A DNA stretch of 36,990 nucleotides, from assembly GCA_947629775.1 (NCBI GenBank), contig CANRFA010000013.1, forward strand, positions 1 through 36,990. The letters are read 5' to 3'. This document shows positions 5,701 to 18,907 of this stretch, piece by piece (the stretch's first letter is position 1; each line of letters begins with the position of its first letter). The notes under the pieces are model-generated. The model ran no database searches. It was not told where the DNA came from and saw nothing but the letters and a program-made list of their open reading frames with translations. Source of the DNA: an uncultured Oscillospiraceae bacterium (GTDB lineage: Bacteria > Bacillota > Clostridia > Oscillospirales > Oscillospiraceae). A program made the translations under genes and the position numbers.

Positions 5701-7995
5701 TCAGCGGACCATGCTGTTTTCCTGCAGCAGTTCCTCCCGGTTCTCCTTGGAAGTGAAGTAATAGTCCAGAATGTCCGCCGCCATGGCGCCCAGGCCGGAA
5801 CCCGAACCGCCGTGCTCGACCACGATGGAGATGGCGATCTCCGGGTCGTCGTAGGGGGCGAAGCAGACAAAGATGGAGTTGGACTCCGTTTTGGAGCTGA
5901 TCTGGGCGGAACCGGTCTTGGCGCCCACCTGCACGTCCAGCTTCTTGAAGTACTTGGCGACAGAGCCCTTGGTGGTCAGGCGGAGCATGCCCCGCTTGAC
6001 GGCGTCCAGATTCTGCGGCTTGATCTCAAAGGAATTCAGCACCTCCGGCTCCTGGGTATAGATAACCCGGGAGAAGTCGCTGGATTTCACGTTCTTCAGC
6101 AGATGGGCCGCGTTGCGCACGCCGCCGTTGCAGAGGGTGCAGATATAGTTGGCCAGCTGCACCGGAGAAACCTGGGTGCTCTCCTGGCCGATGGCCGCCG
6201 AGAGCGTGGAGCCGGGATACCAGGTTTCGCCCATGCTCTCCGTAAAGGCGGGGCTGGCCATGACGCCGGTGGACTCGTCCAGTTCCAGACCGGACTTCTC
6301 CCCGAAGCCGAAGCGGGCGGCGTAGTCGTCCAGGCGGTCAATCCCCAGCAGACGGCCCACTTCAAAGAAGAAGTAGTTGCAGGAGTCCTCGATGGCGTCC
6401 GATACGTTCTCCAGGCCGTGGGTCCGGCCGGTCTGCCGGTAGATCCAGCACTTCTGGGGCGTACCGCCATAGTAGGTATAGGCGCCCATGTCCCGGATCT
6501 GGGTGGAAGGAGTGATCACGCCTTCCTCCAGTCCCCCGATGGCCGTCACCATCTTGAAGGTGGAACCCGGGGGGTAGGCGCCCTTGAAGGCCCGGTTGTT
6601 GAAGGGCCGCAGGGGGTTGGTGCTGTTCTCCTGGAAGTCCTGGCTGTAGGTGGAGAGGTTGTACGTGGGATAGGAGGCGGCGGCCAGCACTTCCGCGCTG
6701 TCGATATCCATGACGACGCAGGCAGCGCCCTCCGTCTCGGAGCTGGCCAGGTTTCCCAGGGACTCCGCCAGGATATCCTCCACCGCCATCTGCAGGTCCA
6801 GATCCAGGGTCAGAATCACGTTGTCGCCCGGAGAGGGCTCCTTCAGCCAGGTGGAGGAGACGATCTTGCCATTCGTGTTGCGCTCCAGCACCCGGGTGCC
6901 CGGCGTGCCCCGCAGATAGGACTCAAAGGCCTCCTCGGCCCCTTCCCTGCCTATGGTATCGTCCATCTCGTAGTCCGGCTTGCCGTCTCCGTCCAGGTCC
7001 AGCGAGGTGTAATAGTCGATCTCTTCCTGGGACTGCATGGGGGTGACCCGGCCCAGAAGGTGGGCTGCATAGGTGGTATGGTACTGGCGCACCGTGGTGG
7101 CCTCGACGGAGACTCCGGAGAGCCCCAGTTCCTTCACCCGGGAAATGAAGTCGATGTCCACGCCTCTGGCGAAGGTGTACGCCACCTGATAGAAGTTGCG
7201 CGCGCGGATTTCAAGCTCGTAGAGCACCCCCACCGCCGCCCGGGCCATGTTGGGATCCATGTCGCCGATGTTCAGCACCGGCACCTCCGCGCCGCTCTCT
7301 TCCGCCTCTTTGGGATCCACGGCGCCATTGCCCTTCACTTCGAAGTACTCGCAGAGAATGCCCAGCAGCTCCTCCGCCGTGGGCAGCGTATAGGGTTTTT
7401 CCGGTTCCGTCACCACGGGCTCCGGCGTGGTGCCGGTAAAGAAGTTCTGGAGCTTTTCCCAGAAGTCCGGCTCCTCCGGAGCGGTTTCTTCCGGTTCCTC
7501 TTCCGGATCCGCCGTGGGATCCTTGATCCAGCGGCGGTCCACCCCGATCTTCCCCAGGATGGTCAGCTTCCGGACCTGGGTGCCGTCCTCCTGGGTCTCC
7601 GTGGTGAAATAGGGGTTCTCGGTGGTAAAGGTGAAGGGAGCTTCTTTGGAGATGGGGAGTTTGGAGTCGTCCCACTCCACTCCGTTCTCCATGGCCACCT
7701 GCACCAGCTGGAGGATGATACGGGTCTTCTCCTCCGTATCGCCCATCCGTCTGGTGTCCAGCCGGACCTGATAGACCGGGCTGTCCGATACCAGCACCCG
7801 GCCGTTGCGGTCCAGAAGCTGGCCCCGGCCGGCCTCCACCGTCTCGTACTCCGAGATCTTGGTCTGGGACTGGCGGTAATATTCCTCGCCGTCGTTGACC
7901 TGAATGTCGTACAGCGTGACGCCGAGGCTGCTTACCACCACCGCCAGCAGCGCGACCAGCGCCCACACCCGCCGGTGAAACTGTTTGATATCCAT
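5701..7995 (-). CDS. mrdA: Penicillin-binding protein 2 (elongation transpeptidase)
   Basis: This 764-aa class B PBP is the transpeptidase of the rod/elongation complex, working with RodA and MreC/MreD on peptidoglycan. One membrane anchor spans about residues 10-30. The dimerisation region includes GRGQLLDRNGRVL at about 57-69. The catalytic triad motifs are STFK with nucleophile Ser478 and Lys481, SCN at 538-540 and KTG at 693-695. The start at 7995 is set by AAGGAG just upstream. The reading frame continues upstream as open sequence through mreD, but that part is a shadow. Two oddities are an acidic, Pro/Glu-rich insert around 158-205 and an EF-hand-like loop DLDGDGKPDYE at about 333-343. 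It is the last gene of the zapA-to-mrdA run, directly after mreC and mreD. Confidence 0.95.
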   Translation of the reverse strand: MDIKQFHRRVWALVALLAVVVSSLGVTLYDIQVNDGEEYYRQSQTKISEYETVEAGRGQLLDRNGRVLVSDSPVYQVRLDTRRMGDTEEKTRIILQLVQVAMENGVEWDDSKLPISKEAPFTFTTENPYFTTETQEDGTQVRKLTILGKIGVDRRWIKDPTADPEEEPEETAPEEPDFWEKLQNFFTGTTPEPVVTEPEKPYTLPTAEELLGILCEYFEVKGNGAVDPKEAEESGAEVPVLNIGDMDPNMARAAVGVLYELEIRARNFYQVAYTFARGVDIDFISRVKELGLSGVSVEATTVRQYHTTYAAHLLGRVTPMQSQEEIDYYTSLDLDGDGKPDYEMDDTIGREGAEEAFESYLRGTPGTRVLERNTNGKIVSSTWLKEPSPGDNVILTLDLDLQMAVEDILAESLGNLASSETEGAACVVMDIDSAEVLAAASYPTYNLSTYSQDFQENSTNPLRPFNNRAFKGAYPPGSTFKMVTAIGGLEEGVITPSTQIRDMGAYTYYGGTPQKCWIYRQTGRTHGLENVSDAIEDSCNYFFFEVGRLLGIDRLDDYAARFGFGEKSGLELDESTGVMASPAFTESMGETWYPGSTLSAAIGQESTQVSPVQLANYICTLCNGGVRNAAHLLKNVKSSDFSRVIYTQEPEVLNSFEIKPQNLDAVKRGMLRLTTKGSVAKYFKKLDVQVGAKTGSAQISSKTESNSIFVCFAPYDDPEIAISIVVEHGGSGSGLGAMAADILDYYFTSKENREELLQENSMVR

Positions 7996-8018: not shown

Positions 8019-8531
8019 TCAGCGCAGACGCTCTCCGCCCACCCGTTCGTAGACCATCCAGAAAATCGCGTAGATGACAGGCGTCCAGCAGAGGGACAGC
8101 ACAAACTCCGGCACGGCCACCTCCAGCAGCACCGTCAGCTCCGCGCTGCGGGTCAGAAGGCCCCGGGCCACCCGCAGCAGATCCACCAGGGCCAGGATCA
8201 GGGTGGAACAGAACACATACCCCAGGAAGGAGCGGGAGAGGACCAGCTGCGCCGCCTTGCCGGCCAGGAAGCCGGCCAGGGCCATGCCGAAGACCAGCAC
8301 CCCGGAGCCCCCCGGATAGGCCAGCTCCCAGAGCAGCCCCACCCCCATGCCGAAGCCGGTGCCGCAGGTACATCCCTCCCTGACCGCCACCGCCGCCACA
8401 CAGGCCGGCAGCAGCATGGGAGAAACCCCGAACAGCGGCAGCCGGGGCAGAATGAAGGCGTCCAGCAGCCAGATGGGGACCATCGCCAGGGCGTAGGTCA
8501 GCCATTTGTGAATCTGGTTCTGAAGGGTCAA
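8019..8531 (-). CDS. mreD: Rod shape-determining membrane protein MreD
   Basis: This 170-aa hydrophobic protein is placed as MreD by its position between mreC and mrdA and by its five or so predicted membrane segments (about residues 13-35, 37-55, 60-85, 95-115 and 135-160). MreD is an integral membrane member of the elongasome. Sequence conservation in this family is low, so context carries much of the call. The start appears to be TTG at 8531, the only start codon after an in-frame stop at 8540, with GGAAGTGA as a weak binding site upstream. The stop lies 23 bases before the mrdA start, so the two are surely cotranscribed. Confidence 0.88.
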   Translation of the reverse strand: MTLQNQIHKWLTYALAMVPIWLLDAFILPRLPLFGVSPMLLPACVAAVAVREGCTCGTGFGMGVGLLWELAYPGGSGVLVFGMALAGFLAGKAAQLVLSRSFLGYVFCSTLILALVDLLRVARGLLTRSAELTVLLEVAVPEFVLSLCWTPVIYAIFWMVYERVGGERLR

Positions 8532-8578: not shown

Positions 8579-9421
8579 TCAGTCGTCGATCTGGAAATCC
8601 TTGATGACGGCCACCTCAATCAGCGCGTCCAGGTCGGCGCTGGGAATCACGACGGCGTAGCGGGTCATGCCGGAGGGATCCGTAAACACGCCCTCCACGC
8701 TGCCCACCACCAGGCCGGCGGGGTACACGTCGCCCCGGCCGGAGGTGACCACCTCGTCTCCGGCCACCAGCTGGGCGCCCTCGGGCAGATAGCTCATCTT
8801 CAGCTTCCCGTCCTGCATGAGCGCGAAGTCTCCCTCCAGGATGCCGGCGGAGTAGGTGCGCTCCACAATGCCACCCATCTCGATGTCCGTGTTGATGATG
8901 GTGGAGACCGTCGCCCAGTTGATGCCGACCTCGGACACCACGCCCACCAGCAGCCCGGTGGAGGTGATGACACAGTCCCCCGGCTCAATGCCGGAGGCCG
9001 AGCCCTTGCTGATGGTCAGGGTGGACTCCCAGTTGTCCGTGGAGCGGGCGGTGATGCGGGCGGTATCCAGATCCAGTTCCCGCCGTCTGGTCTTCAGCTC
9101 CAGAAGCTCCCGCAGCTGCTCGTTCTCCCGGCTGGCCTCCAGCCCGTCCCGCACCTGCTCCTGGAGCTGAGCCAGCTCCTCCTGGAGGGCGGTGAGCTCC
9201 TCCTGCATCTCCTGGTAGTGGAAGACGTAGTTGTAGACTCCCTCCGCCCAGTTCAGTACGGCGGTCACGCCGCCGCGGACAGGGGAGGTGATGGTATTCA
9301 CCACATTGGACAGCGGGTCTGCGTTTCCGCCCATCAGCGCGGAGCTCACCCCCAGAAGAATGGACAGCAGCAGGGCGATCACCAGCAGCAGCACCCCGTT
9401 TTGGCGGAAAAAGTCCTTCAC
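8579..9421 (-). CDS. mreC: Rod shape-determining protein MreC
   Basis: This 280-aa protein has the MreC layout: a short cytosolic tail, one membrane helix (about residues 9-30), a Glu/Gln/Leu-rich coiled coil (about 65-105, YQEMQEELTALQEELAQLQEQ) and a two-lobed beta-barrel domain outside the membrane (ITSTGLLVGVVSEVG; VTSGRGDVYPAGLVVG). MreC scaffolds PBP2 and activates elongation. The start is a GTG at 9421 preceded by AAAGGAG, one base after the maf stop codon, so translation is probably coupled to maf. The maf-mreC-mreD order is common in Firmicutes. Confidence 0.94.
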   Translation of the reverse strand: MKDFFRQNGVLLLVIALLLSILLGVSSALMGGNADPLSNVVNTITSPVRGGVTAVLNWAEGVYNYVFHYQEMQEELTALQEELAQLQEQVRDGLEASRENEQLRELLELKTRRRELDLDTARITARSTDNWESTLTISKGSASGIEPGDCVITSTGLLVGVVSEVGINWATVSTIINTDIEMGGIVERTYSAGILEGDFALMQDGKLKMSYLPEGAQLVAGDEVVTSGRGDVYPAGLVVGSVEGVFTDPSGMTRYAVVIPSADLDALIEVAVIKDFQIDD

Positions 9422-9422
9422 G

Positions 9423-10016
9423 TTATTGGCTCCTTTTGGCGGCCAGAGCCAGGGCGTCCACCCCGAATCCGGTCAGAATGCGGCCCAGCCGGCACACCGG
9501 CAGACCCACCACGGTAAAATAATCTCCTTCGATGCGCTCCACCAGCAGGGCCCCCAGGCCCTGGATGCCGTAGGCGCCCGCCTTGTCCATGGGCTCTCCG
9601 GTGTCCACATAGGCCTCGATTTCCTCCTCGGTCAGCGTCCGGAAGAAGACCTTCGCCGCCTCGTGTTCCGTGCGGACCAGGCTTCCCCGCCGGACCGTCA
9701 CGCCGCTGTACACGGTATTGGCCCGGCCGGACAGTTCCCGCAGCATCCGCAGCGCGCTCTCCCGGTCCCGGGGCTTGCCCAGCACCTCGCCGTCGACGGC
9801 GACCACCGTATCCGAGGCGATCACCAGCGCCTCCGGCCAGGCCCGGGCCACTTCCTCCGCCTTCTGAGCGGAGAGGTATTCCACCAGGGGACCGGGGGCC
9901 AGTCCCTCCGGCGAGCGTTCCTCCCCCTTCGCGGGCACCACCCGGAAATCGGTAAAGCCCATCTGCCGCAGCAGCTCCCGGCGGCGGGGGGACTGGGACG
10001 CCAGAATCATCTCCAT
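9423..10016 (-). CDS. maf: Maf-like nucleotide pyrophosphatase
   Basis: This 197-aa protein is a Maf/YhdE-family nucleoside triphosphate pyrophosphatase that hydrolyses dTTP/UTP or modified nucleotides and has been linked to septum formation. The substrate loop ILASQSPRRRELL is at residues 4-16, the catalytic IASDTVV near 67-73 and GKPRD near 80-84. GAYGIQG follows in the C-terminal half. The ATG at 10016 is chosen over one two codons later because GGAGG lies nine bases before it; that binding site overlaps the end of the upstream DUF2262 gene. The C-terminus is a few residues longer than the minimal Maf domain. Confidence 0.95.
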   Translation of the reverse strand: MEMILASQSPRRRELLRQMGFTDFRVVPAKGEERSPEGLAPGPLVEYLSAQKAEEVARAWPEALVIASDTVVAVDGEVLGKPRDRESALRMLRELSGRANTVYSGVTVRRGSLVRTEHEAAKVFFRTLTEEEIEAYVDTGEPMDKAGAYGIQGLGALLVERIEGDYFTVVGLPVCRLGRILTGFGVDALALAAKRSQ

Positions 10017-10020
10017 GGGA

Positions 10021-10890
10021 TCAGACCTCCAGCACGGCGCTCTCGGGGCCGGACTCCAGGGTGCCGGAGACGTGGAAGGAGGAGCCCGCCAGCTCTCCGC
10101 CGTCGTTGAACCAGAACTCGAAGGCCCCCTCCGGGCCGGCCTGGATGGACTCCAGCACCATCTGCTCCCGGAACTGTTCCTCCGTAAGCGGCTCCCCGTC
10201 TTCGTCCGTGGGAGCGGCCTCTTCCAGCAGCGCGCCTGCGGCGTAATCCCGGACGGTCCGGTCCCAGCGCTCCGCCTCCTCCAGCAGGGCCTTCGCGGTC
10301 TCCACGCTGCCGTCCCGGTCCACATCCTGATCGATGGTCAGCTGGATGGTCTCCCCCAGCCACTCCACATCGGCCTCGAACCAGCCCACGGAGCGGGCCA
10401 GGGTAAAGGTTCCCAGACCGTCGATCCAGAAGGTCACGGGTTTGCACTGCTCGTCCCGGATCTCCTTGAGCTCGGCGTCAAACCCGGGCTCCGGCAGGTT
10501 GATCATCAGCAGCCGGTCCCCGCCGTCCTTCTCCAGACGGACCTTCACCTTGAGCACAAAGTCCCCCGGCACATGGCTGCGCAGGTACTCCTTCAGCATC
10601 TCGTCGCCCTTGGTCACCAGACGGAAGGCGCCCTGGTGCACCCCGGGCACGTCCTCCTCCAGCCAGGCGGTCAGCTCCACCCCCAGCGTGTAGAGCTCCT
10701 CGCCGTCTTTCCGCTCGCCCCAGAATCCGTTGGGACCGGTGAGGACCAGGGCGTCCAGAACCTCCGGCTCAAAGTCCGCGGCCAGCGCCCGGAACTCCCG
10801 GCTCTCTCCGCCGCCGGTCTCCTCCTCTGGGGTCTCCGGCTCCGCGGGGGCCGCCTTTTCCTTCTTCTTTTTTCCAAACAGTCCAAACAT
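10021..10890 (-). CDS. DUF2262-domain protein
   Basis: This 289-aa protein starts with a basic MFGLFGKKKKEK tail, then an acidic Pro/Glu linker to about residue 30. A central region of about 130 residues follows (VLTGPNGFWGERKDGEELYTLG; KVKVRLEKDGGDRLLMINLPE). The C-terminal 120 residues resemble DUF2262, with FEADVEWLGETIQLTID, an aspartate-rich DVDRDGS turn and a final FEFWFNDGGELAGSSFHVSG strand set. DUF2262 proteins have no established activity and are often found near toxin-immunity or SUKH-like contexts; here the neighbours are dut and maf, which gives no clear clue. No membrane segment is seen. The binding site is AGGAGGATAACAGC, and the stop codon overlaps the maf ribosome binding region. 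Confidence 0.7.
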   Translation of the reverse strand: MFGLFGKKKKEKAAPAEPETPEEETGGGESREFRALAADFEPEVLDALVLTGPNGFWGERKDGEELYTLGVELTAWLEEDVPGVHQGAFRLVTKGDEMLKEYLRSHVPGDFVLKVKVRLEKDGGDRLLMINLPEPGFDAELKEIRDEQCKPVTFWIDGLGTFTLARSVGWFEADVEWLGETIQLTIDQDVDRDGSVETAKALLEEAERWDRTVRDYAAGALLEEAAPTDEDGEPLTEEQFREQMVLESIQAGPEGAFEFWFNDGGELAGSSFHVSGTLESGPESAVLEV

Positions 10891-10927: not shown

Positions 10928-11377
10928 TCAGGCGCCGGTGGAGCCGAATCCGCCCGCGCCCCGGGCCGTATCGTCCAGTTCCTCCACCAGCTTCAGCTCC
11001 GCCCGTACCACCGGGGTGAGCATCATCTGGGCGATCCGGTCCCCCGGCCGCACCGTATAGGGGGCGTCGCCGGAATTGTACAGACCCACCATCACTTCGC
11101 CCCGGTAATCGCTGTCGATAACCCCCACACAGTTGGACGGAACGATGCCGTGAAAGATCCCAAGTCCGCTGCGGGCGAAGATCAGGGCCACGTAATCCGG
11201 CGAGGGCACCTGGATGGCAAGCCCGGTGTGAATCACCGTCCGTCCGCCCGGGGGAATGGTCACGGGATCGTCCATGCAGGCGTGGAGATCCATGGCCGCG
11301 GACCCCGGCGTAGCGTACCGGGGCACGGGGATCTCCCGGCCGATCTTCTCCGAGAGGGCTCTCACTTTCATTTCCAT
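10928..11377 (-). CDS. dut: dUTP diphosphatase
   Basis: This 149-aa trimeric-type dUTPase converts dUTP to dUMP and pyrophosphate, keeping uracil out of DNA and supplying dTMP synthesis. All five family motifs are present: PGSAAMDL (24-31), ARSGLG (68-73), GVIDSDYRGE with the catalytic Asp88 (85-94), PGDRIAQM (111-118) and the glycine-rich RGAGGFGSTG (139-148), which closes over the substrate. The start at 11377 is chosen over an upstream in-frame ATG because GGAGG lies eight bases before it. It begins 19 bases after the LuxC-like gene ends, in the middle of the co-oriented run. Confidence 0.96.
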   Translation of the reverse strand: MEMKVRALSEKIGREIPVPRYATPGSAAMDLHACMDDPVTIPPGGRTVIHTGLAIQVPSPDYVALIFARSGLGIFHGIVPSNCVGVIDSDYRGEVMVGLYNSGDAPYTVRPGDRIAQMMLTPVVRAELKLVEELDDTARGAGGFGSTGA

Positions 11378-11396: not shown

Positions 11397-12659
11397 CTAT
11401 CGCTCCACATCCACCATCCGGCAGTAGCGGCGCAGGGGGTACTCCCCGTCGTGGGCCTCGCCGGAGAAGGCCTCGGACATGTGCCCGGGACGGGTAATGC
11501 GGGTGACGCCGGCCTTCGCTAAAAGCTCCGTCAGCCGCGCCCGCTTCTCCGGGGAACAGATGAGGCCCGCCGTCTGCAGCCTTCCCTTCTGCCGGCGCAG
11601 GACCCGCAGCAGATCCCGGCGGGGCAGACACTTCACCAGCACATTGCCGTGGAGCGGAGAGAGCTCCAGCTCCGGATCCGGCCGCAGGGTCACGGTGCAG
11701 CCCTGTCCCCGGAAGAGGGTCTCCTTCCGGTCCGCCCGGTCCGTCAGGTGTTCCAGCCAGGTCTCCCGGGCGTAGAGACTGGCCTGGGCCATCTGGCCGG
11801 CGGTCCGGCAGCGCCGGGCCACCGCCCGCTCCAGAGCGGGCACAAACGAGCGGCAGAAGTCCTCCGCCTCCCGGTCTTCCTCCGTATCCAGGTAAATCAC
11901 CTGGCAGGAGGAGCAGAGCAGTCCCTCCGTCTGCGCGATGTGGCGGGCGAGGGCGTCCCGCTCCCGGTCCTCCTCTTCCCAGCCGGACCAGTAGCAGAAA
12001 CTGAGGCGGTGGCCCCATTCCACCAGCCGGCAGCCGGGAGGGGCCAGGGCCCGCACGGCGGAAATCGCGCCGTCGCCGCCCCAGGTAACAATCCCATCCG
12101 CAAGCGCTGCCAGCGCCGAGAGGCTGGCGGTATCCTGCGAGGGGATATCAAAGGCGTAAATCCAGGGCGCCAGGCGGGGCTCCGTCTCCGTCAGCAGCGA
12201 GAGCAGGGCCAGCGAGAGGCCCTTCTCCCCGTGGGGAAGCTTCAGAAGACAGAGATTGCCGGTCAGAAGGCCCTCCACCACGGTAAAGACGGGCAGACCG
12301 GCCATGTTTCCGGGGGCGATGTGGAGCAGCACGCCCAGAGGACGGCGAAGCGTCCCGCCGAAGGGGCGCCGCCCGTCGTCTTCCCCCAGTTCCACCCGCA
12401 GCTTGTACTCCATGCTCTCCCGGCGCAGCATCCAGCGGATGCCGTCCAGCTGCTCCAGCAGACCGGCCGGCACGTAGCGGGCGATCAGGGCGTCCAGTTC
12501 TCCCCGCTCCAGCCGCTTTCCCAGGGTCTCCAGGGCGGCGATCACGGTCTCCGCCTCCAGAGGCGGTCCCGAGAGGGTCTTCCCCAGTTCCTCCTCCAGG
12601 GAGGACAGGATCCCGGGCAGCCGGCTGTCCGGACAGAGGGTTCCGTTTCGGAGAATCAC
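11397..12659 (-). CDS. LuxC-like acyl-CoA reductase
   Basis: This 420-aa protein resembles LuxC, the NADPH-dependent reductase subunit of the fatty acid reductase complex, which turns an enzyme-bound acyl group into a fatty aldehyde. Family-like blocks are RPLGVLLHIAPGNMAGLPVF (about 106-125), WGGDGAIS (about 193-200) and EGLLCSSCQVIYL, whose first Cys (about residue 249) aligns with the LuxC acyl-binding nucleophile (family pattern LCSSPQ; here the Pro is Cys). The start is a GTG overlapping the stop of the LuxE-like gene by four bases (GTGA) with GGAGGAGG upstream, so the two are translationally coupled. No luxA, luxB or luxD is in the window, so bioluminescence is not indicated. The substrate is unknown. 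Confidence 0.88.
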   Translation of the reverse strand: MILRNGTLCPDSRLPGILSSLEEELGKTLSGPPLEAETVIAALETLGKRLERGELDALIARYVPAGLLEQLDGIRWMLRRESMEYKLRVELGEDDGRRPFGGTLRRPLGVLLHIAPGNMAGLPVFTVVEGLLTGNLCLLKLPHGEKGLSLALLSLLTETEPRLAPWIYAFDIPSQDTASLSALAALADGIVTWGGDGAISAVRALAPPGCRLVEWGHRLSFCYWSGWEEEDRERDALARHIAQTEGLLCSSCQVIYLDTEEDREAEDFCRSFVPALERAVARRCRTAGQMAQASLYARETWLEHLTDRADRKETLFRGQGCTVTLRPDPELELSPLHGNVLVKCLPRRDLLRVLRRQKGRLQTAGLICSPEKRARLTELLAKAGVTRITRPGHMSEAFSGEAHDGEYPLRRYCRMVDVER

Positions 12660-13780
12660 AGTCCCTCCTCCTCTCCCAGCAGCTGCGCCGCGCCGGCGGC
12701 GCAGGTGGTGACCCCCGCGAGGCCCACCCGCCCGATGATGTTGAGAACCGGCGAGGCAATGCCGCAGCCGCAGGACGCCCCGGGTTCCAGCACCCCCAGA
12801 TCGTCCGTCATCACGCTGACCGTGGGGGTGGCGCACATCAGGGGAGAAATCAGGTTGATGATTCCCGTCTCCCCCATGGGCAGGGGCTCCAGGGTCCGGG
12901 GATCCCGGATCAGAATCCGGGCATAAGCGGGCACATGGAAGCGGTGGTTGCGGCAGGTATTATAGAAGATGGGATGCTCCACCGCTCCGAACAGTTCGTT
13001 GATGTGGTCCTCGGGAATCCCCAGAACCTTCTTCACCAGGGAATAGAGGCGGGGCTTCTCCACCTCTTCCTGGTAGTGCTGCTTCCAGCCTCCGGCCAGG
13101 ATGATGCGGGAGCGGGCGGGCAGCTTCAGCGAGACCCCCATCTCCTTCATCTTCGTCAGGCCGAACCACAGGTAGGAGGGAAAGCCGATGAGGCGCACGG
13201 GAAACGGGGAGCGGCTCAGCTTCTCCAGGGCCCGGACGGCTCCCTCCAGGTCCGGCACGTAGACGCCCTCCCGCCGCTCCAGCACAAAGTGGCGGCTGAG
13301 AGGCGGCGCGAACCAGGTAAGACCCCACATGGTGCGGGTCACGCCGGTGGTGTTCTTCCGGTCCGGCCGGTAGCCCAGCACCACATAGTGGGCGGGCACG
13401 GGGGAGGCCAGACCGTGGAGCAGACCCAGACGGATCACCATGGGCGCCTCCGCCAGCACACAGCCCCAGTCGAAGCGGATACGGCTGAAGCTTCCGCTGG
13501 TTCCCGAGGAGGTCACCTCGAAGCAGCGGCGCCAGCGGGGCATGGAAAAGATGGCGTGGCGCTTGAAATAGAGGGTGGGAATGGCGGGAATCCGCTTCAG
13601 ATCCTCCACGGCGCGCACCTGCTCCGGCGAAAAGCCCTCCCCTTCCGCCAGGGTCCGATACGCCGGGCAGTGACGGATGTGGTACGCGCAGTTGTCCCGC
13701 ACCGCCCGCAGGAAGGCCCGCTCCGTCCCGGCCAGGTCGTAGGGCCGGGAGAGCCAGAACAGTTTCTGCCTGGAGAGCAT
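12656..13780 (-). CDS. LuxE-like acyl-protein synthetase
   Basis: This 374-aa protein resembles LuxE, the ATP-dependent acyl-protein synthetase that activates a fatty acid as acyl-AMP and passes it to LuxC. The nucleotide-binding motif EVTSSGTSGSFSRI is at residues 88-101. Other adenylate-forming features are FGAVEHPIFY in the middle, NLISPLMCATPT, and MTDDLGVLEPGASCGCG near the C-terminus, as in the LuxE/PaaK superfamily. The start has AGGAGG seven bases upstream. It starts 23 bases after the U32 gene and overlaps the LuxC-like gene. In marine luminous bacteria these sit with luxAB; here they sit among cell-envelope genes, so an aldehyde used in lipid or envelope metabolism is a reasonable guess only. 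Confidence 0.87.
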   Translation of the reverse strand: MLSRQKLFWLSRPYDLAGTERAFLRAVRDNCAYHIRHCPAYRTLAEGEGFSPEQVRAVEDLKRIPAIPTLYFKRHAIFSMPRWRRCFEVTSSGTSGSFSRIRFDWGCVLAEAPMVIRLGLLHGLASPVPAHYVVLGYRPDRKNTTGVTRTMWGLTWFAPPLSRHFVLERREGVYVPDLEGAVRALEKLSRSPFPVRLIGFPSYLWFGLTKMKEMGVSLKLPARSRIILAGGWKQHYQEEVEKPRLYSLVKKVLGIPEDHINELFGAVEHPIFYNTCRNHRFHVPAYARILIRDPRTLEPLPMGETGIINLISPLMCATPTVSVMTDDLGVLEPGASCGCGIASPVLNIIGRVGLAGVTTCAAGAAQLLGEEEGL

Positions 13781-13803: not shown

Positions 13804-15888
13804 TTATTCCACGTCCCGGTAGTACAGCCCCCGGGTAAAGTCGCTGGGGATATAGCGTCCCCGGCCCAGATAGCGCTCCATGATCTTTCTGCACTCCTGG
13901 GCGTCCTCGGTGGTGAACATGAGGCGGGCTCCCCAGATTCCGAGCCGGCTCCAGTCCCGCATCTTGTCCGCCAGGAAGACCTTGCGGGCGTTGAGAATCT
14001 CGTTGCGGCAGCCCCAGGCCTTGACCACGGGGAACCGCTCTCCCTTGCGGTCGATGAGATGGTTGACGTTGTGGCAGGTGTGCTGCCCCGCCTGGCTGTG
14101 GACGATGCAGTTTTCCGTGATCATCAGGGGCAGGCGCCCATAGGCGATGAACTCCAGGGGGATGGCCTTGGACAGATCCCGGATCTGGGCCAGCTTGAGC
14201 TCGAAGGAGGCGGTGGCCGAGGAGAAACCCCGCCGGCGCAGTTCCTTCAGGGTCTGGCTGTTGAATACCCCGATGCCGAAGTCCGCCCGGATGCGGAAGC
14301 CCAGCTCCCGGGCCCGGCGGGCCACCCCCAGGGTTCCGGCCAGGGCGTCCTCCACGCCCAGTTCCAGCAGGGTCAGCAGATCCTGCTCCAGCGCCTCCTG
14401 CTCCCGGTCCGTGCAGATGCGGGGCAGGAGAACCGCGGTGGGCACGCCCGCTCTCCGGCAGTGGTCGAAGATCTCCGGGTGGGAGATTCCCTCCTGGACG
14501 GGAATGTAGAGCAGGGCGGGCTTCATCTTCAGAAGCTCCGGGGAGATCTGGCTGACCTCCCGCACGGAGACCGTGTACACCGGCGGCTCCCGCCGGTTTT
14601 CGTACCGGACTCCCGTTTTAAAGGTCTCCTGCCGGCGCTCCGGCGGCTCCTGGCGCATGCGGGTCAGTTCCTTCAGCGCGTCCCGGCGCAGCGTGTTGAT
14701 GGAGGAGAGGGACAGGGACAGGCCCGGGTCCACCTTGGCCAGGGTCCGCTCCGCGAAGAAGGGCGTGCCGCCGGTGCGGGCCAGCTGGCTCTCCACCTTC
14801 TCCTGAGTCAGGGGGGCGTTGCGGGCGGACTCCGGAACGGCGCCCTCCGCGAAGGCCACCCGGCCCTCCAGATCCTGCACCGCCACCTGAGATGGCTGCC
14901 CGGCCTCGATCAGGGCGTAGATGCGCACCGGCTCCTTCCGGTTCTCCCCGCTTTCATAGGTGCTCCGGGCCTCCTGGTACAGTTCCAGGGGCTCCCGCTC
15001 CTCCTGCCGGGTCCCGAACATGTCCCTCCCCAGTTTCCCGGTGTAGTAGCCGTCCGTAAAGCCCTGACGGGAGAAGGCCTGGCGCAGGGTGTCCATTTCC
15101 TCCCGGGTGGGCTCCCGCTCCTCCTTGAGGGCCTGGGCGAAGATACGGGTCACGATGGCCACATATTCCGGCCGCTTCATGCGCCCTTCGATCTTCAGGC
15201 AGGCCACTCCCATCTCCTGCAGCTCCTTCAGATGCCGGACCAGAGACAGGTCCTTCAGGGAGAGGGGCCAGCGTTCCGCCTTCTCGTTGAGGCCGTATCG
15301 CAGCCGGCAGGGCTGGGCGCACATGCCCCGGTTGCCGCTGCGTCCCCCCAGAACGGAGGAGAAGAAGCACTGTCCGGACCAGCACATGCACAGAGCGCCG
15401 TGGCCGAAGATCTCGATTTCAATGGGGGAATGGGTGCAGATGAACTGGATCTGGTCCCGGCGCAGCTCCCGGCCCAGCACCACCCGGCTCATGCCCAGGT
15501 CCGCGCACTCCTTCACGCCGTCCAGAGAGTGAATGGTCATCTGGGTGGAGCCATGGATGGGCAGATCCGGGGTGGTCTGCCGCACCATCCGCGCCACCCC
15601 CAGGTCCTGTACGATCACCGCGTCCGCGCCGATGCTGCTGGCGTGGGCCGCGGCCTGGGCCACCCGGGGCAGTTCCCGGTCCGTGACCAGGGTGTTGAGG
15701 GTCACATGGACTTTGCACCCCCGCAGATGGCAATAGGAAACCGCCGCCGCGGCCTCCTCTTCCGAAAAGTTCTTCGCGCTGCGGCGGGCATTGAAGTCTC
15801 CATATCCAAAATAAACGGCCCCGGCTCCGTTCTGCACAGCGGCAGTTACCGCTTCCATCGAACCGGCAGGGGCGAGCAGTTCCAGCAT
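13804..15888 (-). CDS. U32-family peptidase/RlhA-like protein
   Basis: This 694-aa protein is a long member of peptidase family U32. The N-terminal TIM-barrel-like part starts with ELLAPAGSMEAVTAAVQNGA and carries the family signature region around residues 160-200 (EIFGHGALCMCWSGQCFFSS, then MCAQPCR), rich in conserved cysteines. A following domain of about 300 residues resembles DUF3656 of the long form, and CIVHSQAGQHTCHN near the C-terminus gives further cysteines. Some U32 proteins are RNA hydroxylation enzymes (RlhA, TrhP) rather than proteases; the long form with DUF3656 is closest to RlhA, which hydroxylates a cytidine in 23S rRNA. Whether this one does so is inference. AGGAGG precedes the start. 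It follows zapA by 63 bases, an arrangement common in Firmicutes. Confidence 0.9.
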   Translation of the reverse strand: MLELLAPAGSMEAVTAAVQNGAGAVYFGYGDFNARRSAKNFSEEEAAAAVSYCHLRGCKVHVTLNTLVTDRELPRVAQAAAHASSIGADAVIVQDLGVARMVRQTTPDLPIHGSTQMTIHSLDGVKECADLGMSRVVLGRELRRDQIQFICTHSPIEIEIFGHGALCMCWSGQCFFSSVLGGRSGNRGMCAQPCRLRYGLNEKAERWPLSLKDLSLVRHLKELQEMGVACLKIEGRMKRPEYVAIVTRIFAQALKEEREPTREEMDTLRQAFSRQGFTDGYYTGKLGRDMFGTRQEEREPLELYQEARSTYESGENRKEPVRIYALIEAGQPSQVAVQDLEGRVAFAEGAVPESARNAPLTQEKVESQLARTGGTPFFAERTLAKVDPGLSLSLSSINTLRRDALKELTRMRQEPPERRQETFKTGVRYENRREPPVYTVSVREVSQISPELLKMKPALLYIPVQEGISHPEIFDHCRRAGVPTAVLLPRICTDREQEALEQDLLTLLELGVEDALAGTLGVARRARELGFRIRADFGIGVFNSQTLKELRRRGFSSATASFELKLAQIRDLSKAIPLEFIAYGRLPLMITENCIVHSQAGQHTCHNVNHLIDRKGERFPVVKAWGCRNEILNARKVFLADKMRDWSRLGIWGARLMFTTEDAQECRKIMERYLGRGRYIPSDFTRGLYYRDVE

Positions 15889-15951: not shown

Positions 15952-16263
15952 TTACTTTTTATTCTGCAGCCGGAAGATCTCCCGGTTTTTCTCCGAAAGT
16001 TCCAGCTTCAGGCGGCTGGCCTCCTCCAGGCTCTCCTTATACTGACGGCGGAGGTTCTCCGCGTCCTCCAGAGCCCTGAAGTACTGATCCGTGATGTTCA
16101 TGGCGGCCAGGACCGCCGCGTCCACCTGACCCAGACGGTCCCCGGCTGTCTCCCGCAGTCTGGCGTCCACGTGAGCCGCACAGCGGCGGACATAGGCCTC
16201 GTCCTCGGTTGCCACCATGGTATAGCTACGGTCCGCGATGGTGACCGTGATCCGGTTTTTCAT
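15952..16263 (-). CDS. zapA: Cell division protein ZapA
   Basis: This 103-aa protein matches ZapA, a small FtsZ-binding protein that bundles Z-ring filaments. The N-terminal globular half contains VTIADRSYTMVATEDEAYVRR and DAAVLAAMNITDQYF. The C-terminal half (about 62-103) is a coiled coil with heptad-like spacing (ENLRRQYKESLEEASRLKLELSE split over two helical turns). Length and layout are normal for Gram-positive ZapA. It is the first gene of the leftward run that ends with mrdA and has its own extended -10 promoter. Confidence 0.88.
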   Translation of the reverse strand: MKNRITVTIADRSYTMVATEDEAYVRRCAAHVDARLRETAGDRLGQVDAAVLAAMNITDQYFRALEDAENLRRQYKESLEEASRLKLELSEKNREIFRLQNKK

Positions 16264-17896: not shown

Positions 17897-18907
17897 TTAC
17901 CTTGGCGGAATCGCCTGCCGGATCCGCGCCCTTCCGGCCTCCACCATCCGGCGGAGAAGGACGCCCATGACGATGTTGCAGGCGAACAGCGCCAGATAAT
18001 GGAGCAGCCTGGAGGAGAAGGGAAAGACCGCGCTCAGCATCCGATACTCGATAAAGAGGCTGACGTTCAGCAGATAGATCTCCAGACTGTTTTCCCCGAC
18101 CACCCGCAGGAAGCGCCGCACCAGCCCCAGCGGCAGCCGCTCGAACAGCCAGCAGACCGCCAGGCACATGGGCACGGTGGTGAAGAGGAACAGGTGACAC
18201 TCGGGAAGATAGAAGACATCGGGGTCCGTGCGCAGGGCGGCCGCCAGGTAGGCGACCCCGACCCCCAGCCAGACAGCCCAGAACAGCAGGTCCTTCCTCT
18301 CCAGCTTCCGCTCTTCCCGGACCCGGAACCCGATCTCCAGCCCCAGGAAAAACACGGGCACCCGATAGAACACGTCCAGCCAGGACCACTGGTCGCAATC
18401 CACCAGAATCCGACAGACCAGCAGTCCCAGGAGAATCCCGCCGGCGATCCACCCGAGGCGCCGCTTCCTGCCCTTCAGAAACCGCCAGCAGGGAGGCAGC
18501 AGCGCGTAGAAGAGCAGAATACCGGCCACATACCAGTTGAAGGCCCCGGGCGGATTCACCCAGTAGTAGAGCAGCGTGCTGTTCCAGATCAGGGTGGAGA
18601 GGGGCGCCTGGCCCAACCCGACGCGGATCAGGGTGGCGGGAATCATGACGGTATAATAAGCCGGCAGAATCCGGCCGGCCCGCCGGGCCAGAAAGGAGCC
18701 GTAGCTCTGCTCCCGCCGGCTCAGGGACAGGACAAGCCCCATGGCGGAGAGCACGAGAAAGATGTCCACCCCTCCGAAGCCGGCGGCCCGGAACAGGTAG
18801 AGAAGGGTATGCTCCGGCGCCAGGTCCATGGCGTGAAAGAGCATCACCCAGAGCATGGCCATTCCCATCAGCTCGGAGCGGTAGCGGCTCAGAACGCCGT
18901 ATCCCAT
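17897..18907 (-). CDS. Acyltransferase-3 family membrane protein
   Basis: This 336-aa polytopic protein belongs to the acyltransferase 3 family (OatA/NodX-like membrane domain), which moves acyl groups onto sugars or cell-wall glycans. The N-terminus shows YRSELMGMAMLWVMLFHA, the conserved R/E...H signature, then GGVDIFLVLSAMGL (about 45-58) and the RRAGRILPAYY block (about 77-87). About ten membrane helices follow. It lacks the extra SGNH domain of OatA. AGGAAGG precedes the start, immediately after the pnp terminator. The target (peptidoglycan, polysaccharide or other glycan) cannot be told from the sequence. Confidence 0.9.
   Translation of the reverse strand: MGYGVLSRYRSELMGMAMLWVMLFHAMDLAPEHTLLYLFRAAGFGGVDIFLVLSAMGLVLSLSRREQSYGSFLARRAGRILPAYYTVMIPATLIRVGLGQAPLSTLIWNSTLLYYWVNPPGAFNWYVAGILLFYALLPPCWRFLKGRKRRLGWIAGGILLGLLVCRILVDCDQWSWLDVFYRVPVFFLGLEIGFRVREERKLERKDLLFWAVWLGVGVAYLAAALRTDPDVFYLPECHLFLFTTVPMCLAVCWLFERLPLGLVRRFLRVVGENSLEIYLLNVSLFIEYRMLSAVFPFSSRLLHYLALFACNIVMGVLLRRMVEAGRARIRQAIPPR

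Follow-up and report, generated by a model that had tools for sequence, protein, structure and literature searches.

Why should two genes related to the aldehyde-forming enzymes of bacterial bioluminescence lie within a run of cell-division and cell-shape genes? This question is raised by a 36,990-nucleotide stretch of DNA from an uncultured Oscillospiraceae bacterium (assembly GCA_947629775.1, contig CANRFA010000013.1, positions 1 to 36,990 of the forward strand), which we call the window. It contains a luxE-like gene for an adenylating acyl-protein synthetase (12656..13780, minus strand) directly followed by a luxC-like gene for an acyl reductase with the fold of the aldehyde dehydrogenase (ALDH) superfamily (11397..12659, minus strand). 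Our analyses make it likely that the pair encodes a self-contained, luciferase-free two-subunit fatty-acid reductase, carried as an optional cassette in a permissive slot of the chromosome.

Identity of the LuxE and LuxC proteins

Both open reading frames (ORFs) are intact. The luxE-like gene encodes 374 amino acids (aa) from an ATG start and the luxC-like gene 420 aa from a GTG start; according to the ORF coordinates, the luxE stop and the luxC start share the four bases GTGA (12656..12659, minus strand), an overlap that suggests translational coupling of the two genes. In the Pfam searches, LuxE matches PF04443 with E=1.1e-35 over residues 9-365 (123.7 bits against a gathering score of 24.9; profile positions 22-387 of 391), and LuxC matches PF05893 with E=1.9e-53 over residues 39-414 (182.3 bits against a gathering score of 21; profile positions 9-400 of 401), both being full-length matches. 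The original prediction, made from the letters of the sequence, had proposed a LuxE/LuxC pair at this locus, and the two Pfam matches confirm it; the nucleotide loop of LuxE (TSSGTSGS), the cysteine in the LCSS motif of LuxC, the GTGA overlap and the span 11397-13780 are as it had described them, and the strand, which it had left unstated, is minus.

Profile searches of the organism's own genome returned a single match for LuxC and a single full-length match for LuxE, together with a second, partial LuxE match of 25.5 bits over 105 profile positions. The luciferase family Bac_luciferase (PF00296) has no match in this 3.07-Mb assembly, which is 95% complete, so that the earlier statement that no luxAB lie near the pair holds across the assembly. 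The companion statement about luxD is borne out beside the pair, where Pfam identifies the flanking genes as those of a U32 peptidase and of dut, the rest of the genome not having been searched for luxD.

A profile of 13 LuxE proteins matched the LuxE of the Photobacterium phosphoreum LuxC-LuxE complex (7xc6) with E=7e-30 and aligned Cys360 with chain position 364, and a profile of 14 LuxC proteins matched the LuxC of the same complex with E=5e-19 and aligned Cys249 with the cysteine of ..ACFSTQ.. in 7xc6_A. We take the acyl-carrying cysteines of the Photobacterium enzymes to be LuxE Cys364, near the C-terminus, and LuxC Cys286. Cys360 of LuxE and Cys249 of LuxC are cysteines in 87 of 87 alignment rows, which comprise the window, 80 named loci (partly overlapping with the genus genomes described below) and six others; Cys360 is predicted to be the acyl-transfer residue, on a C-terminal tail of LuxE, and Cys249 the nucleophile of LuxC. 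The SSGTSG motif occurs in at least 71 of the 87 rows of the LuxE alignment, with gaps at this site in two rows and SSGTKG in two.

AlphaFold models built from 31-row alignments reached a predicted local distance difference test (pLDDT) score of 87 for LuxC and 86 for LuxE. In the LuxE model, residues 354-359 and 361-363 fall below 50, and such a low-confidence tail around Cys360 would fit a mobile arm. The first-ranked Foldseek match of the LuxC model was 7xc6_A (E=4e-18), the LuxC of the Photobacterium complex; the best matches of the LuxE model were ligases of the PaaK type, which form adenosine monophosphate (AMP) intermediates.

The window's pair is a luciferase-free, stand-alone variant of the known LuxC-LuxE system, and by its position in the division and shape run it looks like cargo. 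It resembles the Photobacterium complex in both subunits by profile, in LuxC also by fold, and in its two catalytic cysteines, its gene pairing and its SSGTSG motif, but its LuxC is shorter (420 residues, against 477 in the chain) and has 19% identity in the fold alignment. Unlike bioluminescent lux systems, it has no luxD at its side, its genome gives no match to luciferase, and its gene order is luxE-luxC with a 4-nt overlap. The adenylating fold of LuxE is shared with PaaK-type phenylacetate-coenzyme A (CoA) ligases; LuxE is shorter and has a cysteine-bearing C-terminal tail where PaaK has a CoA-binding part. The LuxE/LuxC proteins of flagellin-glycosylation islands and of a second clostridial type (loci L094-L097) belong to the same Pfam families and also lie outside a lux operon. 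As far as the accessible parts of the reports and the annotated loci L094 and L096 show, these pairs lie with genes for acyl carrier protein (ACP), FabG, AMP ligases or glycosyltransferases, in contrast to the stand-alone two-gene cassette of the window. Locus L096 combines second-type LuxE/LuxC, seemingly in two pairs, with one half of a transketolase, a thiamine pyrophosphate (TPP) enzyme and an AMP ligase, and L094 combines them with a glycosyltransferase and a short-chain dehydrogenase/reductase (SDR), near small ACP-like ORFs without a Pfam match. The divergent second type, which in some clostridial genomes lies in clusters of a glycan-like or secondary-metabolism kind, was also seen at L097.

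Distribution of the pair and its seat between U32 and dut

LuxE and LuxC are sparse yet strictly paired. In our sample of the order, LuxE exceeded 120 bits in 13 of 295 genomes and LuxC reached at least 70 bits in the identical 13, thresholds that were chosen after the score gap was seen; because the same genomes carry both genes and the genes are adjacent in all 13, we treat the pair as a unit. By score, eight of these genomes hold the window's type and five the second type. LuxC reached at least 160 bits in 7 of 150 genomes of the family sample, with three more at 73-98 bits, and LuxE exceeded 120 bits in 6 of 398 genomes of the phylum sample. Within the genus, LuxC exceeded 130 bits in 38 of 64 genomes, and in 18 of the 31 with a completeness of 90% or more and a contamination of 5% or less; matches of 90 bits or less, among them the second-type LuxE/LuxC of G151 and G172, were left uncounted. 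Pseudoflavonifractor capillosus, P. phocaeensis, Flintibacter muris and Colidextribacter sp. are among the named relatives that carry the pair. The two genes share a strand at 80 of 80 named loci, with luxE as the upstream gene, and the overlap is exactly 4 nt in 71 of them. We recognised no description of this pair in Oscillospiraceae in the titles and abstract openings of the papers listed, a scope outside which most subscription papers fall.

Two other arrangements of the genes were observed. At L154/L092 (genome G014) and L161, luxE and luxC lie 1.0-1.6 kb apart, these being the sole two of the 80 named loci so spaced. At G274:C88:23243-25531, the LuxE and LuxC matches each sit inside a 789-aa frame on the same strand, and because of this the frames are probably one, which looks like a natural LuxE/LuxC fusion.

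In the window, the pair is bordered upstream by the gene of a U32 peptidase with a DUF3656 domain (13804..15888, minus strand; PF01136, PF12392) and downstream by the dUTPase gene dut (10928..11377, minus strand; PF00692), whose start we set to 11377. We carried out a census of this slot in 38 carriers (the window and L051-L087) and 26 non-carriers (L216-L241), as far as the contigs extend; in the homologue searches, the tree and the census, the dut query had five extra N-terminal residues and the maf query two. The order U32-luxE-luxC-dut is found in 32 of the 38 carriers, the context being truncated or altered in the remaining six; it is shared by many species of the genus rather than being a strain-specific insertion. 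Of the 64 genomes, 27 have the pair with no extra gene between U32 and dut; before luxE, two carriers have a small gene, one a membrane-protein gene, and two an endonuclease V gene with a small gene. Four carriers show luxE-luxC-dut and no visible U32, two of them at contig edges (L051 and L061) and two away from such edges (L071 and L082), and the contig of L072 stops after luxC. At L060/L115 (G197), a rearrangement or an assembly join has left zapA and U32 in inverted orientation and displaced from luxE-luxC-dut.

Among the non-carriers, U32 and dut stand together without the pair in 25 of 26, while the stretch of the 26th (L232) does not extend to U32. Nothing was recognised in the slot in 20 of them, a membrane-protein gene alone in four and a small gene alone in one, and tblastn at E up to 0.01 detected no trace of luxE or luxC in any of the 26 stretches. 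Since 25 of the 26 non-carriers keep U32-dut without the pair, we regard the pair as an optional cassette within a zapA-mre backbone that is itself conserved; the two genes are present or absent as a unit, and their seat looks like a permissive slot. For example, G154, a single contig, has no trace of luxE/luxC when compared with its sister G201; the small cargo gene is kept and the dut leader is nearly the same. Three kinds of slot cargo were seen, alone or with the pair: endonuclease V, a membrane-like protein of about 235 aa and a protein of about 140-165 aa (L066 2873-4134, L084 4973-6598, L220, L221, L226, L228 and L237). Endonuclease V was identified by Pfam (PF04493, L066 copy); the other two proteins have no Pfam match, and the label 'membrane protein' was assigned by eye.

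The simplest reading of the pair's history is a single arrival in the slot followed by repeated loss, and its spread by homologous recombination is possible. On a quick backbone tree of six backbone proteins, from which mrdA was excluded, the presence of the pair requires 12 changes, at least nine of them forced by starred branches, with gain and loss indistinguishable. In the tree of LuxE and LuxC, which is quick and midpoint-rooted, the pairs seated in the slot fall into a single group (38 rows) with a Shimodaira-Hasegawa-like approximate likelihood ratio test (SH-aLRT) value of 90, below the starred level. Its sister group has 22 rows; in three of them the pair is located upstream of zapA at a distance of a few kb, and the stretches of the other 19 show no U32 or dut. 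The 80 named loci divide into 35 of the slot group, three upstream of zapA and 42 without U32 or dut in the stretch examined, 10 of these 42 stretches being shorter than 12 kb.

The surrounding gene run

Pfam agrees with the gene order originally proposed for the neighbourhood. All on the minus strand, zapA (15952..16263; PF05164, E=8e-18) precedes the U32 gene, and dut is followed by a gene for a DUF7021-DUF2262 protein (10021..10890; Pfam), with a tblastn match in most but not all relatives, and by maf (9423..10016; PF02545), mreC (8579..9421; PF04085), mreD (8019..8531; PF04093 at 23.7 bits, just below the 24-bit cut-off) and mrdA, which encodes PBP2 (5701..7995; PF00905, PF03717). The run had been described as co-oriented and starting with zapA; its co-orientation stands, and its start lies further upstream, where lepB, ymdB, pnp and, between the latter two, a gene for an acyltransferase-3 family membrane protein (17897..18907, minus strand; PF01757) share the same orientation.

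From zapA to mreD, the genes are separated by -4 to 63 nt, the gaps in the vicinity of the pair being -4 to 23 nt. Because of these tight gaps and the co-orientation, a single transcript is likely, and the zapA-mre run, luxE-luxC included, is probably co-transcribed. Shine-Dalgarno-like GGAGG or GGAG precedes seven of the eight starts inspected, mreD being the exception. Scans for regulatory sites were not used in our interpretation: one weak sigma-70-like match lies upstream of zapA (16342-16315), three promoter-like sites were found in the region against 1.7 expected, and terminator-like sites numbered 21 where 8.6 were expected, all minus-strand ones within the zapA-mreD run being intragenic.

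Predicted chemistry and alternative explanations

The catalysis that we infer, together with its chain length, cofactor, acid source and the fate of its aldehyde, follows the scheme of the LuxC-LuxE family. LuxE would bind adenosine triphosphate (ATP) and a free fatty acid, form acyl-AMP and then move the acyl group onto its own Cys360, in the C-terminal tail; LuxC would accept it on Cys249 and reduce it with reduced nicotinamide adenine dinucleotide phosphate (NADPH) to a long-chain aldehyde. The free fatty acid might come from an acyl-ACP thioesterase, which would do the job of LuxD, from lipid turnover or from the gut. An acyl-ACP thioesterase (PF01643) is present in 60 of the 64 genus genomes, the copy of the organism's own genome lying on contig C32, other than that of the pair; since it is found in so many of these genomes, we rejected it as an uninformative test for a LuxD-like partner. 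ORF clustering at the 80 named loci found no co-directional family recurring across contexts that would point to a conserved third partner; this clustering was a screen, and mechanical gene picking mis-split some loci. The neighbours that do recur in the sister group look like fixed local neighbours and not partners: a DUF4130 gene (family 16) at 10 loci, mostly directly downstream and on the opposite strand, an ORF without a Pfam match (family 14), which may be a false ORF, at 11 loci, and a gene for a pyridine-nucleotide oxidoreductase (family 53) at three. The DUF4130 gene was seen on the opposite strand, directly after luxC or one gene further on, at L111, L120, L123, L130, L134, L141, L144 and L153.

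It is important to consider the observations that weigh against a self-contained fatty-acid reductase in an optional slot. The NCBIfam equivalogs of bioluminescence lie out of reach, with 78.6 bits for LuxE (NF052244, cut-off 550) and 40.6 bits for LuxC (NF052251, cut-off 750); because these scores are so far under the cut-offs, substrate and product may differ from those of the bioluminescence enzymes. The LuxE chain 7xc6_E does not appear among the 50 Foldseek matches listed for the LuxE model. The thioesterase is not specific to the pair, being present in all 26 non-carriers and in 34 of the 38 carriers; the genomes that miss it (G167, G170, G185 and G189) are all carriers and 65-86% complete. 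The median ratios of non-synonymous to synonymous substitution (dN/dS, NG86), 0.32 for luxE and 0.40 for luxC over 1709 pairs (luxE dS 0.03-1.2), are below 1 and speak for the reading, but are to be taken with the caution that dS is close to saturation in many pairs. The support of the slot group, below the starred level, belongs with these points.

Among the alternatives, we consider it unlikely that the pair reduces another acid (an aryl, short hydroxyacyl, or protein- or glycan-linked acyl group), as the LuxE/LuxC of flagellin-glycan islands may do. The resemblance of the LuxE fold to PaaK-type ligases speaks for such a role, as does the company of the second type, AMP ligase and TPP enzymes in L096 and glycosyltransferase and SDR in L094; according to the accessible parts of two reports, the flagellar glycan islands of Aeromonas and Enterobacteriaceae also contain LuxE and LuxC (PMC7874193, PMC4875605). 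Neighbours of this kind are missing beside the window's pair, however, which at 26-31% identity is clearly distinct from the second type. In the order sample, the window's type fits the LuxC model at 165-198 bits (eight genomes) against 73-105 for the second type (five genomes), whereas the fit to the LuxE model is mostly reversed (123-149 against 147-194 bits). Somewhat less probable still is the proposal that the aldehyde feeds plasmalogens or other ether lipids as their alkenyl or alkyl chain. According to the accessible part of Goldfine's review, bacteria used long-chain aldehydes and not alcohols for plasmalogen synthesis (PMC9702350), and the consulted part of a Flavonifractor/Flintibacter paper lists dimethyl acetal (DMA) fatty acids, a mark of plasmalogens, for some of its comparison strains (PMC12050419). 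On the other side, the known anaerobic route, as far as the accessible text of two sources describes it, uses PlsA/PlsR to reduce the sn-1 ester in place on a diacyl lipid (PMC9702350, PMC13274423). The organism's own genome has a PlsA-type gene (BadFG+DUF2229), running off the start of contig C17. DUF2229, a marker for PlsA-type genes that alone is no proof of PlsA, is present in 52 of the 64 genus genomes, in 33 of 38 carriers and 19 of 26 non-carriers (Fisher p=0.20, with incomplete genomes included and relatedness uncorrected), and G202, a high-quality carrier, has no DUF2229 match. Co-occurrence thus showed no significant association of DUF2229 with the pair that would favour a plasmalogen link. 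Ether-lipid or plasmalogen feeding, one of the uses first suggested for the aldehyde, finds no support as its main role given the in-place reduction of diacyl lipids, as described in the accessible text, and the absence of a significant association between DUF2229 and the pair.

The position that raised our initial question would suggest that the pair works within the division and shape operon, tuning septal membrane lipids for example, an explanation that we consider very improbable. Spacing of -4 to 23 nt, co-orientation and probable co-transcription are in its favour, and so are the placement kept in 32 of the 38 genus carriers and the sister-group pairs a few kb upstream of zapA at L121, L135 and L163, with DnaD/DnaC-like replication genes in between at L121. 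Against it stand the 25 of 26 non-carriers that show U32-dut without the pair, the nine or more gains or losses forced by starred branches, the other cargo in the slot (endonuclease V and two proteins without a Pfam match) and the 42 of 80 named relatives in which the stretch examined shows no U32 or dut. The special tie to division or shape that the gene order had seemed to imply is not upheld, and there is probably no such functional tie. A remnant of a lux bioluminescence operon can hardly be credited: homology alone favours it, the equivalog scores are far under their cut-offs, and the named kin are mostly Oscillospiraceae, a family of strict anaerobes. We rejected this candidate on the lack of a luciferase match in the genome.

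We favour the self-contained fatty-acid reductase carried as an optional cassette. A more specific picture, which we put forward as speculative and doubtful, is that of a luciferase-free aldehyde module without luxD beside it, a common optional trait in one genus of gut Oscillospiraceae and thinner in the order, whose aldehyde, or an alcohol or amine derived from it, ends in an undescribed lipid or secreted molecule, so that sister species differ by two genes. The case cautions against inferring function from position in an operon, the U32-dut slot accepting unrelated cargo, and sister pairs with and without luxEC (G154/G201 and G039/G152) would offer a natural lipidomic comparison. Should the predicted activity hold, these anaerobes would be able to form free long-chain aldehydes.

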